64,000 nucleotides of DNA from Thysanoteuthis rhombus. Taxonomy: Eukaryota > Mollusca > Cephalopoda > Oegopsida > Thysanoteuthidae. The notes under the pieces were generated by a model that had not been told where the DNA came from, did not search any database, and saw nothing but the letters and a program-made list of their open reading frames with translations. This document shows positions 8 to 53,690 of this stretch, one piece after another. Both the position numbers and the translations under genes were made by a program. Positions within the stretch are counted from its first letter, which is position 1. Every line of letters begins with the position of its first letter. Location: the NCBI GenBank assembly GCA_963457665.1, contig OY735215.1:43401825-43465824 (forward strand), in the 5' to 3' direction.

Positions 8-28201
<28,194 letters not shown>

Positions 28202-28319
28202 TTCTGGAGACCGTGGAATCACTGTTGTGGTTTTTTTAAATCTCTTTTGTTGCTTTCCAGTTTATATGTGTGTAGATGAGAAGAAAAAGAGTAAGACAGA
28301 TGCAAAGAAAGATTGCTTG

Positions 28320-39850: not shown

Positions 39851-42230
39851 GTCAATATCAGATTATCGATATAAAAATATCGTATTCAGCGTTGCCAGTT
39901 CAGCTCTTTTAGAGCTAGATCTATCTCATTTTTTATGCATTTAGCTTGTAACCCTACACCTAGCTCCTAGCTCCTAATTTAGTCCCTTTTCCGTTGAAAT
40001 GATATATAAATGTTGTTATATAAAATGTATGAAACACCACATGATTATACGTTGATTACTAGTCGAACTTTCTTTTTATTCTTTGTATTCTGGACGATTA
40101 GGTCTTAATATAGCTAAGGAATTTGGGGTCTATGACCCAACGACTTGATATCGTGAACCACGCTATAACGAACTGGACATTTTTGCATTTTTTTTTTTTT
40201 CGCATTTCTAACTCTGAAATCTATACTCGACTTAACAAACCCGATCATGCTATACCAGAAGTGTAGTAGGTCAAGGAGATATCAGATAAAAGAAATAATC
40301 TTATGCCATTAGTTGAATTTTTAAAGAAATATTACAATGAAAAGTATTTGTGGCCTTCTTTTTTCTCTCGTTCGGAACTAATTGTTGTTTTTTGTGGCAA
40401 ATTGACTACAAAGTAGCAGAAAATTCCTGTCGCACTACAAATTGTAAGTCACAAAGTTACTTTGGAATGAAATCGGCGATCTCGTGAGCTAAGTGTCCCG
40501 AATTATCACGGTTGTTTTGAGGGCACTCGGTCATCGGATACAACAAAACTGTGCGTGATCAAATCTCCTGAAAACAAAGTCCAAAAATACCCCGAAATAG
40601 AATAAAAATTAACACTTTATCAGCTATTCTATCATCATAGAGTCGTGAGCATACTACCTTTTTTTTCTATCAATTCTCAAAATTGTATTATTGGGAATAC
40701 AAATAGCTGTAAAAAAAAATGTTGACTCTATCGAAGAAATGACTCTGAAAGTATGAAAAGTCTCTTCATTAGACTTGATTAATTCTTAATATTTTATTAG
40801 AGATCCAGACAAAGGCCCTACCGGACAAAATTTCCACCAGACAAAAATTTAGTATTTCTGTGAGTTTGAATGAATGAAGATTTTATGGGATTTTATTTGC
40901 AATGTGATCTTATTTTCTATCTCTTACCATACGTCAAAGAAAGTATAGAATTAGTAATAATATGATTATAGTAATAAATAAAATAAGCCCAAAAAGTAAC
41001 ATGCTTTTCTTTTTATTATTTTATGACAAATAATGAGATTTCTTGTAGGATTTTAATTGATAAAAAAGAAAAATTAAAACTTCAATTGGATTTTTCTAAC
41101 ATTTGATGAAACAATAGTATTTTAGCTTTTATTAATTGTATTTCATGATAAACCCAAATTTCTAATTTCTGATTTGAAGTTAGTCCATAATTGTGGGATT
41201 CGTTAGATTTTTTTGTCATAGACCCATATTGTTGTAACCGTTAATTTTGGACGCTAAAGTAAAGTGATATAAAAATTGCAAAAAGATCATAACAAAAAAG
41301 GGAAAAAATATCAATAAGAAAACTTACATATAATGGGATTCTTGTTCTTTCCGCGTTATAAAAATATGATTAACTAAAAATGACGAAAAATCTCTTGGAA
41401 GTCCGTCAGATCGTGAAATCTTCCATCATTTCTATCCCTACAGCTCTGTATAAATTTTCATCCTCCGTATAAATTTTCATCCAGTTGGTCAACTCTCCGC
41501 CTTAAAGGGTTATAGCCTGATGCCTGAGGCGTCCCATAAAGAGAAGTGCTGCAACCACCCACACGTTTGTGTTCTCACTTTACGCTAGAGATCTTGTATC
41601 ACATTCTGCCCTCGTGAGTAGGCGAAGAGATAACTCCTTTAAAAGGCTGGGGTGGTTTTCATCATGATGAAAGGTCTCACTCCAGGGGCACCGGGAGCAA
41701 TCTAAGGCAGGGGGCAGCTTTTCAGAAATTTTATGACATATATTTTCATTTCGAGGTTGCAAAGTTATGACAAACAAAAGTGCGAGTGTTTCCCAACCTG
41801 GGGGTTGCAGACTTCGACGGTCTACAAAAGTATTACAACCATAGTAACATTTGAAAATATTGCTATGTTCTGTTGACCTTTGAAGAACTGATAGTACACT
41901 TTGATCTTGAACTTGAGGTTGGTAAAAGGAATCTGGATAGTACCCCGGAACCAAACTTTCAAAAAAGATGTTCGACTATCTCAAGACATTTCTAAAAGCC
42001 ACTAGAATAATGTTTGGTTAATGCTGTAGCTCAAGCGGTGCGAACACTTTATTCATGTTTTGGGGTGCTCAGGGTGTTAAATTTATTGCTACAAATTGTT
42101 TTTATGTATGAAAAAATAATTGAGACTTATTCTATTGAACTCACTAATTATTGTTAAAATTGGTCAGATTTTCTGCTATCATACATAATCATCAGATCAA
42201 AAATCAGGCAGATTTAGTCGAAAAATGGTT
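39851..42230. other. Intergenic, unrecognised
   Basis: No recognised gene. A 124-codon minus-strand open frame (41580-41954) overlaps a tttcccaacctgggggttgc motif common in decayed DNA transposons, so it is more likely repeat-derived than a gene. Confidence 0.45.
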
Positions 42231-42413
42231 ATTATTTCTATTGATATTCGGACCATCCTCATCTTGGTTGTTTTTCATACAACGTTTCGGCCGTTGCACT
42301 CTACGGCCTTTGTCAGGTATCATCTACCTGACGAAGGTCGTAGAGTGCAACGGCCGAAACGTTGTATGAAAAACAACCAAGATGAGGATGGTCCGAATAT
42401 CAATAGAAATAAT
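42231..42413. repeat. Near-perfect palindrome, 89-bp arms and 5-bp loop
   Basis: Arms 42231-42319 and 42325-42413 differ at about two positions; the loop is tcatc. Each arm reads out from the centre as tacctgacgaaggtcgtaga, then gtgcaacggccgaaacgttg. The cTGACGA...GAAAC core resembles the ctgacgaaggc...gccgaaacgt motif repeatedly seen near Penelope-like element ends. The structure could be an inverted pair of element ends or a foldback transposon. Confidence 0.9.
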
Positions 42414-43560
42414 AATAATGCCTCATCTCAAAAATTCCGAGATATACTGAAAAATGGTTAATTTGGCAACACTAGATTGTTTCCAACGGATTAGGTGACT
42501 CTCTGTGTGTAGCTAGACAAGAATTCTTTTTTTCGTATTCTATGGCTTCACAAGAAGATAAATGACGATGATATCAGCTTGTTTGTTTCATAACGTGAGA
42601 GGAATTGAATTTGACATAAAAGTTTGCTACTCAACAAGTCAAAGTAATAAAGTTTGATTGTTTGGGGTATTGGAGGAGGGGGTTCTACCTATGAAGTACA
42701 GAGGATCCAAATAATTCACAGTTTTTATCTTAAAGTGAAAATATTTTTGTAGGTATGAGAAGTTTTATTCAGTTGGTAAGAATACTTTTTTTGGCAAGAT
42801 GTTTTTTTTCACAGTCAGCCTCTATTCATATCAATTCTATTCCAGCCAATCGCTATGTATCGTTTTATTTTACTTTCATGGTCTTTCTCTGATTTTATCA
42901 GATGATCTATGTATACAGAAGCCAGTGTAAACGGAGTCTCACCCTCTATTCATATGATCGTTTTCAGGACTTTATAGTTGAACATTTTTTTGGTCTTTGA
43001 CCTGTTCATCTTTAACCCTATTTTTTTACTTTCCCTGTTTATATCATTTATTTATCCTATGCTTATGATATCATTGAAATGTCATAAGGAAATCCAAAAT
43101 TGTTGAAATATTCCCCATCTATGTTTATTCCTATTATCCTCCAATCAGTTTTCCGGAAGGTGCCTTCAAGGTTCATTGTAAGTAGCTGAATATTGTATTC
43201 CTTGTCTCACACTTTTTCCGATATTTATCTTTATTGTATTGATATGTAGTGTAACCTTTGAAGTGCCATTTTCATACGCGTTCTGTATGACTTGCATGCA
43301 ATTATCGTTAACGCTTTGTTCTCGCATTGAGTTGAAGACTTCTGTGTGTTTTATTGAGTTACAGTTTTCATTTCGCCCGTGGTCCGAGAATAGAGCGTCC
43401 CTACAGAGAAAAATATTTCTTCAAACTGGAATGACGTGAAGCAACGAAACAATGGCCATTTATCTATACGACAAAGGTTTTTTTGAGCGTTCCCAAATCC
43501 CGAAATTGGCAATGATGGTATGTTATGCTGAGTCATCAAAAGTGGGGTGTTGGAAGGTAC
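42414..43560. other. Intergenic, unrecognised
   Basis: AT-rich sequence with no supported feature. 43560-43740 belongs with the possible repeat shared with 31290-31420. Confidence 0.45.
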
Positions 43561-44476: not shown

Positions 44477-44779
44477 TACTGTACTGAAGGGATAAAATGA
44501 GAGAATCCGCATGTACGTGTTGCAGAGTTACCAATTTAGAGGTAATTTTTTTCAATTTTTCCTGGATGTCACTCTCAGATTCGGGAGATTAAAAAAACAC
44601 AACTCAATCGGCAAAACTGAACTTTGAAACATGAGAAAATTTGAAGAAAAAAAAACATCTAAATATTCTCAACACTGGACTCACGAATTCGGTAAAACAA
44701 CAAAAATTATATAAAACATTTAAATTGGCCTCATGGGTGTGTAGGTGTGCAGCATACACTGCTATGAAAATATTTGAGA

Positions 44780-45425
44780 AACTGTTCTTAAAACGTTAGA
44801 GGAACAGTTTTTCAAAACATTAAAGAAACAGTTCTTGAACATTAAAAAGTGATTTTTAAACATTAGAGAAACAGTTCCTGAACATTTAAAAATCGGTGCT
44901 TGAACAGTTCTTAAAACATGGAAGGAACAGATCTTAAAACGTTCAAGAAACGATGCTTTAGCGATAAAGAGACAGTTTTTGAAACGATGAAGAAACAGTT
45001 TTTAAAACATCAAAGGAACAGTTACTGAAACATTGAATGAACATTGTTTAAAACATCAAAGAAAAAGGTTTTAAAATGTTAAAAAAAAACTGCTTTTAAA
45101 ACATTAATGGAACAATTCGCGTTATACTAAAGAAACGGTTTTTAAAACAATAAGGGAAAGTTTCTTAAAATATGAAAAACAGTTCTTGAAATACGGAGAA
45201 AACAGTTCTTGGAACGTTAAAGCAACGGTGCTTATACATCAAAGAGTCAGATTTAAAACATTAAAGAAGCAGTTCTTAAATCATCAAAAGAATAGTTCTT
45301 GAAACATTGAAGAAATAGTCCTTAAATATTTAAGAAACAGTTATTAAAACATGAAATTGACTGTTCTTGAAACATTAAAGAAACAGCTCTTAGAATACGA
45401 AAGCAACAACTGTTAAAACTATTTA
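44780..45425. repeat. Long minisatellite, ~28-bp unit (aacattaaagaaacagttct)
   Basis: Roughly 20 or more degenerate units of (g/a)aacattaaagaaacagttcttgaa cover about 640 bp. No long open frame runs through it. Confidence 0.9.
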
Positions 45426-52340: not shown

Positions 52341-53348
52341 ACTGTGGAGGACGGGATGCAGTGGAGAAAGGGGGCAAGATAATCAACGCATATAGTGCGG
52401 TGCTGGTAAAGGTGGTGGTGTCGGGATGAGGAGAGGCAGGAATGGTTGGTGGCAGGCGAGACACAGGAGGAGGGAGAGAGGGATAGGTCGCAATTGCAAC
52501 AGAGAATCAACAAGAAACACACGCAGAGACGCAATGATAAGTTGAGCGAAGGAGGGGAGAGTAATCTCCCCTTCCCACCTTTTTTTTTATCCCTTCCTCC
52601 TGACACAATATCTTTGTCTCCTCTTCCTCCATATGATCACCCCTCCGTTCCTTATTTCTCAATATCTGTCGATGTAATTTATGTCATTTCCTTTTTATGT
52701 ATCACATATATTTTGTTGTTATGGTACTATGTTTCGATTTTTTTTTCTTGTTGGGAACATCTGTTGTTTACTATGTACAAACGAATCACAAAGAACTGAT
52801 GTTTCAACTACATACTGATAAGGGAAATGCATACAGTCTCTCTTGCTGATTTATAACTACCAGCAAGCAAAGTATCTCCACAATGTAAAACAAAAAAAGT
52901 AACAATCAGTGACGAACAAGTAAACGAGAAAAAAAAGAGAAAAATAGATATGTAAATAGAATAGAAGGAAGGTTTACCACCCTAGAAAAATAGATACCCT
53001 CCAAAAAAATGTCCTAAATAGGGATTTGAAATAAATCGAATCATTTGCTGAAATAAATCCAGACAGGGCAGAAACATAGAAGTATCTGTGTAGTGAATCC
53101 TTTATTTCATTATATTTTAAGCTCTACTCAAACTCAACCTAATGTTTAATGTTGAATTATCGATCACTTCGCGAAAAAAACCATCACATATTGGATACTG
53201 CATCATATTATATTGTACTCCTGATTTGTATTGTACACATGTCATGGTCAGAAACGTTTTCCCTGTAACCTGCGTAAGTAAGCCCTTTGTTAAAAAAAAG
53301 AACTAAAAATAAATACACATCTACCATCATTCTAACTGGAAAGGCAAA

Positions 53349-53690
53349 AATTTCATCTATCTTTCAGAATGTAATAAATGCCAACTGTAATATATAAGCA
53401 AGTCTGAGCAGCTGTTCAGCATTAGACTTAATAACTATTGACATAGGACTGAATCATTCAATCATCCGAATCTATTTCTAATAGAGCTACACTTCTGTAC
53501 CCCGTATTTTTGCACAGACACTACAGTCACCATCATTGAACAAAATAGAAAAAAGTATACCTCCCGACTGGAATTTTAGAACTACATAAGGATATGCGAT
53601 CGATAAACTTGAAACCCACTCCTAATGGACACAACACTAAACTCAACAGCCCTAACCACACCGATCTCTCATCCAATAATTCACTCAGTC
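53349..53690 (+). pseudogene. Penelope-like element GIY-YIG endonuclease remnant
   Basis: One frame, broken by several stops, reads NFIYLSECNKCQL-YISKSEQ, FSIRLNNY-HRTESFNHPNLF, LIELHF, TVTIIEQNRKKYTSRLEF. The IYL..C..C...YIGxxxxx...R.N.H pattern is the Cys-containing GIY-YIG endonuclease module at the C-terminus of Penelope-like elements. Here the Gly of YIG is Ser and at least three stops are present, so it is dead. The C-rich, G-poor sequence to about 54260 may be its 3' region. Confidence 0.65.

Follow-up and report, generated by a model that had tools for sequence, protein, structure and literature searches.

A near-perfect palindrome in the Thysanoteuthis rhombus genome as a probable two-ended insertion of the 3' end of a Penelope-like element

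Introduction

How does a near-perfect palindrome with a hammerhead-like motif in its arms arise at a single site in a squid genome? The window analysed here, a stretch of 64,000 nucleotides from Thysanoteuthis rhombus (contig OY735215.1), holds such a structure, which the original prediction had tied both to hammerhead ribozymes and to Penelope-like elements (PLEs). To address its origin we compared the palindrome with its relatives in the same genome, examining how their arms end, how they meet and what they duplicate at the target.

Results

The palindrome and its insertion

A repeat search of the window delimits two inverted arms at 42229-42319 and 42325-42415, each of 91 nt, which are 98% complementary and enclose a 5-nt loop. 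The near-perfect palindrome that had been proposed is thus real, its earlier coordinates lying 2 nt inside ours at both ends. The arms have two mismatches, CTGACGA/CTGACAA and GGTCGT/GGCCGT. Flanking the palindrome is an exact 12-bp direct repeat, GAAAAATGGTTA (42220-42231 and 42449-42460), which has no third copy in the window; a 12-mer or longer was held in common in 164 of 20,000 random placements, microsatellites included. Because the right arm runs to 42448, where it abuts the second copy of this target-site duplication (TSD), the insertion is placed at 42232-42448 (217 bp), and the palindrome makes up most of it. The features of the locus are as follows, with unit positions referring to the 309-nt unit defined below.

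42220..42231, no strand: left TSD copy, 12 bp, exact repeat of 42449-42460
42229..42324, minus strand: no-tail arm, unit 275 to 179, running outward to the left (BLASTN 100% over 97 nt, unit 179-275)
42281..42316, minus strand: hammerhead-like core of the left arm, with CTGACAA, a 4-bp stem I, a 6-bp stem II and a loopless helix III (relaxed descriptor)
42325..42448, plus strand: tail arm, unit 185-308, running outward to the right (BLASTN 97.6% to unit 185-308)
42328..42363, plus strand: hammerhead-like core of the right arm, CTGACGA-A-stem II-GAAACGTT, with stem I cut short
42366..42448, plus strand: start of the presumed PLE reading frame (ATG at unit 226; L102 and L104 translations)
42414..42448, plus strand: the tail, at the right end only (unit 274-308), missing in the other arm
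42449..42460, no strand: right TSD copy, 12 bp, exact repeat of 42220-42231

The first bases of the no-tail arm overlap the TSD. A recent origin, as had been suggested, fits the perfect 12-bp TSD and the two window arms, which differ at 0 of 62 positions in unit 209-270, compared with a mean difference of 8.4% in this region between arms of different insertions. The rest of the window holds no second clear copy of the unit. Rfam microRNA-hairpin matches at the palindrome were rejected, as a long perfect hairpin yields such matches. An 18-mer has a single match to a viral contig, and by our estimate about one would arise by chance in so large a collection. The palindrome stems from two head-to-head copies in one insertion, not from a hammerhead and not from a foldback transposon.

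The 309-nt unit is the 3' end of a PLE

Relatives of the window copy were collected from the same genome (2.73 Gb), 40 of 1151 candidates being scored. Comparison of the copies defined a 309-nt unit (reference, copy L021), which comprises, in order, a tRNA-like head, the hammerhead-like core (about 184-227), an ATG at 226 and the end at 309. Genome-wide, a 45-mer from the unit (226-270) is matched exactly at 653 sites in forward and 661 in reverse orientation (1,314), and its reversed control has none; the probe sits outside the tail, and exact matching favours well-preserved copies. Among 100 sites listed, the closely spaced ones (<500 bp) make up eight pairs, all of which are arranged minus-then-plus. 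At one locus (L029, 490-896), unit 235-309 is repeated head to tail five times with a 74-bp spacing.

The original prediction had proposed both a Penelope link and a genome search with the arm sequence, and this search bears out the link: the arms are a PLE end. The unit adjoins PLE coding sequence at two loci, L102 and L104, which have about 1.2 kb in common, unit included, with PLE-like open pieces upstream of the unit; at a further locus, L106, a same-strand PLE match precedes it. The point of reference is L053, a PLE of the same genome with a reverse transcriptase (RVT_1, 3.2e-15) followed by a GIY-YIG frame (1.2e-5, both Pfam). In a single BLASTP comparison, the RT piece of L104 matches that of L053 (2e-9), and the L104 RT pieces on their own have no Pfam match. 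The GIY-YIG piece of L104 has neither a Pfam GIY-YIG match nor a match to the L053 endonuclease; it does match, at 8e-6 by phmmer among 3003 sequences, the endonuclease of L048, which is Pfam-positive, and a profile built from three GIY-YIG members gives it 32.0 bits, where none of 2000 shuffles exceeded 11.2. A 701-base stretch of this PLE recurs in at least 39 other places at 92-95% identity (40 scored of 1063 first-look candidates).

Thus the unit is continuous with a PLE RT, and GIY-YIG lies downstream of RT. The unit also carries an optional 30-40-nt tail at one end and includes the first ORF codons, the start codon being an inferred one: after the ATG of the unit L104 reads MKNNQDEDGPNINRNNNNTSSQKFRDIL, and the frame that opens at this ATG (226) would be the PLE N-terminus, with its own start codon. 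A complete pLTR-ORF-pLTR copy with the unit at its 5' end was not seen in three stretches upstream of PLE copies (L109-L111). What the unit represents is the 3' terminus of a PLE from this genome, with RT and GIY-YIG pieces upstream.

The window holds one further PLE feature.

53316..53665, plus strand: decayed GIY-YIG endonuclease, separate from the palindrome (tblastn with the L053 endonuclease, E 4e-19)

This confirms the GIY-YIG remnant that had been noted 11 kb away. A motif scan missed it and tblastn found it; it contains stops and is 57% identical to the L053 endonuclease in the longer aligned piece. The remnant belongs to a different PLE family from the source of the palindrome.

The tRNA-like head

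The head of the unit resembles a tRNA: within 331 bases of L020, RF00005 scores 27.7 bits (E 7e-4), slightly short of its gathering threshold (29). Neither ARAGORN, run on the reference copy, nor Rfam at gathering, run on L019 and L021, reported a tRNA or any other family, respectively. Arms start at unit 1-6 in 18 of 40 sampled insertions, so that two marks of a tRNA-derived SINE are present, a tRNA-related 5' region, with the score noted, and a discrete RNA 5' end. As to possible RNA polymerase III transcription, TTTT is missing from the unit, as it is from 46% of shuffles. A separate SINE as the sole source of these copies was considered and is weakened by the continuation of the unit into PLE coding sequence (L102, L104). 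Since the tRNA-like stretch lies inside the 3' end of the PLE itself, it may be a PLE leader, with no separate SINE involved. The leader raises the possibility of PLE-driven SINEs.

The hammerhead-like core

The layout described earlier for the right arm is present: CTGACGA, an extra A, a 6-bp stem (GGTCGT/ACGGCC) closing an 8-nt loop, then GAAAC, with CTGACAA in the left arm. At the level of the family, this claim holds further, as the shared layout, ATAC-CTGA(N)(G)A-A-stem II-GAAACGUU-GUAU, resembles the minimal hammerheads lacking helix III that are reported in PLEs (PMC6155905, in excerpt). It does not hold for a complete ribozyme at the locus, which neither arm contains. The CUGANGA...GAAA core with G8 occurs in the right arm only, with the extra A before stem II, and the left arm reads CUGACAA. 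Stem I of the right arm is shorter than 4 bp because the palindrome junction truncates it, and three helices around one intact core are found in neither arm.

Covariance models gave the same answer: Rfam reports no family at gathering in the window, and the 20 matches up to E 10 that it gives in 42130-42520 do not include a hammerhead. A loose CTGANGA...GAAAC pattern matches twice in the window with 1.12 expected, and 26 of 100 shuffles reach two. A descriptor of stems I, II and III with G8 fixed finds 0 sites in the window (0.005 each in 200 simulated windows); with G8 allowed as A, a relaxed form that stands apart from the simulated control, it finds one window site, the left arm.

Downstream of the PLE frame of L053 lies a similar core with one extra base before stem II. 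Closely similar cores (CTGATGATGGGA...TCCCGAAACATG), again with an extra base before stem II, are seen near two GIY-YIG matches in L052 and L053 (minus strand, 2284). The reference list of PMC6155905, as excerpted, includes a title that names a viroid hammerhead with an extra core nucleotide. In excerpts of a study of an Anolis PLE (PMC11167929), hammerhead mutants insert normally and cleavage occurs only with protein. Given these Anolis mutants, the lack of an Rfam match, the loss of G8 in one arm and the truncated stem I in the other, and the retention of CTGANGA in 26 of 49 family arms, the core is here a lineage marker, an inherited part of the PLE end whose function is only putative.

Two-armed insertions carry one tail

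Two sets of insertions were examined. The first comprises 35 palindromes found with the window copy, a query without the tail; palindromes are over-represented in this set, and bias affects its inner ends as well. All 35 are head to head. In 34 of them one outer end reaches at least unit 296 and the opposite one does not go past 284, and among these 34 the no-tail end falls at 270-280 in 33 and at 222 in L038. The exception, L020, ends at 284 and 276, with a full tail at neither end.

The second set comprises the first 44 of the listed 45-mer sites, taken in list order, which represent 40 insertions (L062-L101, completed by L102-L106, plus L024). Of these, 32 are two-armed, and all 32 have exactly one tail end. 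The two-armed calls rest on BLAST in 28 cases, among them L093, whose no-tail arm was extended by eye; L085 was called via L105, L067/L068 (one insertion) via L102, L071 by eye, and L092 with L106, a pair joined by position, strand and intervening PLE matches that has only 7 exact TSD bases. Among the other eight insertions, L091 and L024 look one-armed with a TSD, and L062, L072, L077, L084, L088 and L101, which were not shown to be two-armed, were assigned no arm count. At L077/L103, a no-tail end on one side is accompanied on the other by a short inverted piece of PLE 3' untranslated sequence, possibly a third, unusual start site.

Pooling the sets, with the overlap (L007 = L078) removed and L107/L108 added, gives 66 of 67 two-armed insertions with exactly one tail. 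This exceeds chance, as an independent choice by the two ends would give at most half; with a 50% choice per end the probability is 1.8e-18 for 64 of 65, the count before the last insertions were added. The tail end lies mostly at unit 301-309 and the no-tail end mostly at 270-280, typically about 34 nt earlier, with far-upstream no-tail starts in L038 (222), L069 (223) and L082 (about 250). Insertions in which one arm includes coding or untranslated PLE sequence also obey the rule (L102, L092/L106, L107/L108).

Target duplications, inner ends and arm divergence

TSDs were sought in 58 distinct two-armed insertions; the step for the first set omits L005, L020, L029, L032 and L038 (30 of 35 included). 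An exact TSD of at least 9 bp is present in 42 of the 58. Leaving aside L010, whose 18-bp match ran into element sequence, the 41 listed TSDs measure 9-17 bp with a mode of 12 bp (16 of 41). Overlap between TSD and arm is small and scattered.

Where the arms meet, either one may be the longer. In the first set the tail arm is longer in 13 of 35 and the no-tail arm in 22 of 35, the latter including the tailless L020; in the second set, counted by hand, the tail arm is longer in 16 of 32, the no-tail arm in 11 and the two lie within 5 nt in 5. The 35 palindromes have 33 distinct inner-end pairs, with centres ranging from a 105-nt spacer to 6-nt overlaps. L008 and L029 have the same inner ends and the same junction. 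L065 and L066 have different TSDs and a nearly identical centre, with a similar AT-rich spacer of 31-34 nt. The likeness within each of these pairs may reflect a re-copied palindromic template or a preferred microhomology.

Arms of the same insertion resemble each other more than arms drawn at random: the mean distance is 0.055 vs 0.083 after shuffling, and 0 of 2000 shuffles were as low (33 of the 35 palindromes, L020 and L038 being left out). An arm's own partner has a median rank of 0.24, where random would give 0.5 (55 insertions). Insertion-private variants, which bear on whether one RNA or two served as template, are common to both arms 3 times and confined to one arm 52 times (63 insertions).

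Origin of the palindrome

At each outer end of these insertions lies a 3' end of the element; in the centre the arms join 5' end to 5' end. We consider it probable that the palindrome is a 5'-truncated, two-ended insertion of the PLE 3' terminal unit, primed from both ends of the target break. The PLE endonuclease would cut the target in a staggered way that leaves two 3' overhangs of about 12 nt, as the TSD mode of 12 bp implies, and both overhangs probably served as primers, since both outer ends are 3' ends of the element. Each 3' end would start the copying of PLE RNA into cDNA, and of a pair of adjacent start sites each would use a different one; both cDNAs would run toward the RNA 5' end, halting there or earlier, and their 3' ends would be joined, often with a few shared or extra bases. 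A start site accounts for the near-fixed no-tail outer end better than a stop does. The two ends hardly ever share a site, which suggests that both may be served by a single RNA or by a single dimeric complex of RNA and protein with fixed geometry: two primers sharing such an RNA or complex would be forced onto different sites, and two independent RNAs would impose no such constraint.

Palindromes could also form by hairpin self-priming, in which a cDNA or an antisense PLE transcript folds back and copies itself into a head-to-head inverted repeat, a route put forward for rotifer PLEs (PMC3846280, in excerpt). It accounts for the palindromes and for a small centre, such as that of the 5 of 32 sampled two-armed insertions whose inner ends lie within 5 nt. 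Self-priming predicts, however, that the folded-back arm is the shorter at the centre, on the no-tail side, yet in 22 of 35 and 11 of 32 insertions it is the no-tail arm that is longer; this freedom of either arm to be longer argues against self-priming, which also leaves the near-fixed second outer end at about 270-280 unexplained. We regard it as unlikely. Retrotransposition of a transcribed palindromic master copy, the palindromes then being a hairpin SINE-like subfamily, would fix both outer ends and would suit the similar spacer and near-same inner ends of L065 and L066, with their different TSDs, and the one junction of L008 and L029. The diversity of inner ends (33 pairs among 35) and of centres (105-nt spacer to 6-nt overlaps), and the persistence of the end rule in arms with PLE coding or untranslated sequence (L102, L092/L106, L107/L108), make this origin very improbable.

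The remaining explanations bear on the motif and on the inverted repeats themselves. If the locus were an active hammerhead, palindrome transcripts would self-cleave, and the CTGACGA/GAAAC layout with a loopless helix III, like that of minimal PLE hammerheads (PMC6155905, in excerpt), speaks for this, as does CTGANGA in 26 of 49 family arms covering the core. Against it stand the missing Rfam match, the change of G8 to A in the left arm and the truncated stem I in the right; a palindrome transcript would, moreover, probably pair arm to arm, and in Anolis, according to the excerpted PMC11167929, the hammerhead cleaves only with protein while its mutants insert normally. The chance of such activity appears smaller still. 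A foldback DNA transposon or MITE with long terminal inverted repeats would share the long inverted repeats and the target duplication, but TSDs of 9-17 bp (mode 12), variable inner ends, a one-sided tail and continuity with PLE coding sequence are foreign to it. Neither fixed terminal inverted repeats nor a short fixed TSD was found, and PLE identity together with variable ends refutes this class of element, whose probability we take to be negligible.

Beyond this locus, it is plausible, though we say so tentatively, that PLE integration here is normally two-ended target-primed reverse transcription in which a single RNA bears both start sites and each 3' overhang uses one of them, once, and that the tRNA-like leader may yield PLE-mobilised SINEs. 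If so, the one-sided tail would be the geometric signature of a two-primer complex at a staggered cut of about 12 nt, and short SINE-like transcripts that the tRNA-like leader may yield would include both start sites.

Discussion

Two-primer integration, as favoured here, has a biochemical counterpart. In excerpts of PMC11167929, the PLE of Anolis cuts the two target strands and extends each of them, its reverse transcription begins at two neighbouring internal sites between which the tail lies, and the in vitro enzyme has no apparent strand difference in its start site. The elements described here are like this Anolis carolinensis Poseidon in having two adjacent RT start sites spanning the tail, with cleavage and extension of both strands, and in the hammerhead at the ORF start and the AT-rich targets (PMC11167929, in excerpt). 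They are unlike Poseidon in vitro, where the excerpted text reports no strand preference, in that each two-armed insertion uses one of each site; the lack of a strand difference in Anolis allows one tail per insertion without predicting it. The start sites here lie 45-55 and 76-84 nt into the presumed ORF, and the main Anolis site at 111-118 (PMC11167929, in excerpt). According to the same excerpts, the in vitro study covers cleavage and first-strand initiation, with the later steps yet to be validated. With its 1,314 exact 45-mer matches, and with 32 of 40 sampled insertions two-ended, the family is a natural archive of the two junctions and of where the cDNAs came together.

The closest structural precedent is the Penelope of Adineta vaga. 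There, in the excerpted text of PMC3846280, PLEs have inverted pLTRs and palindromic head-to-head junctions attributed to self-priming, necessarily on an antisense template. The likeness extends beyond head-to-head inverted terminal copies with palindromic junctions: the A. vaga pLTR includes the first ORF codons, and there are 8-10-bp TSDs and an optional 31-bp tail on one inverted pLTR. Inverted pLTRs with an optional one-sided tail are therefore already known (PMC3846280, in excerpt). In A. vaga, however, inverted pLTRs mostly flank an ORF (PMC3846280, in excerpt), whereas most sampled copies here are short and ORF-less; and the tail, optional there, is nearly strictly single here (66 of 67), with arm lengths that oppose self-priming. 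One-sided tails and inverted pLTRs thereby become testable geometry, with self-priming disfavoured.

Metazoan retrozymes (type I hammerheads) offer a further comparison: they too are non-autonomous and carry hammerhead-type cores, and PLEs have been suggested as their helpers (PMC7229834, in excerpt). As described there, retrozymes form tandem repeats with canonical, mostly active hammerheads, while the core here is minimal and in many cases decayed, and the sampled copies are mostly pairs in head-to-head order at dispersed sites.

The unit is also like tRNA-derived SINEs in its tRNA-like head, its short high-copy form, its discrete 5' end and a 3' end shared with an autonomous element, but the partner is a PLE and not a LINE. 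In L1 twin priming, both target strands prime on element RNA, which gives 5' inversions of different element parts. The likeness lies in the priming by both strands; unlike L1, both arms here copy the same region, which yields a palindrome. In the open-licence papers searched, covered mainly through titles and abstract openings, we found no precedent for a near-strict rule of one tail, for the test by arm length, or for the tRNA-like leader or a PLE-tailed tRNA SINE.

Elsewhere in the window, open frames at 22975-23376 and 27845-28261 (minus strand) resemble what we take to be exons of an organic-anion-transporter-like membrane protein. A run of N lies at about 30.6-30.9 kb, and a degenerate tandem array with a period of about 23 bp occupies 44767-45392.
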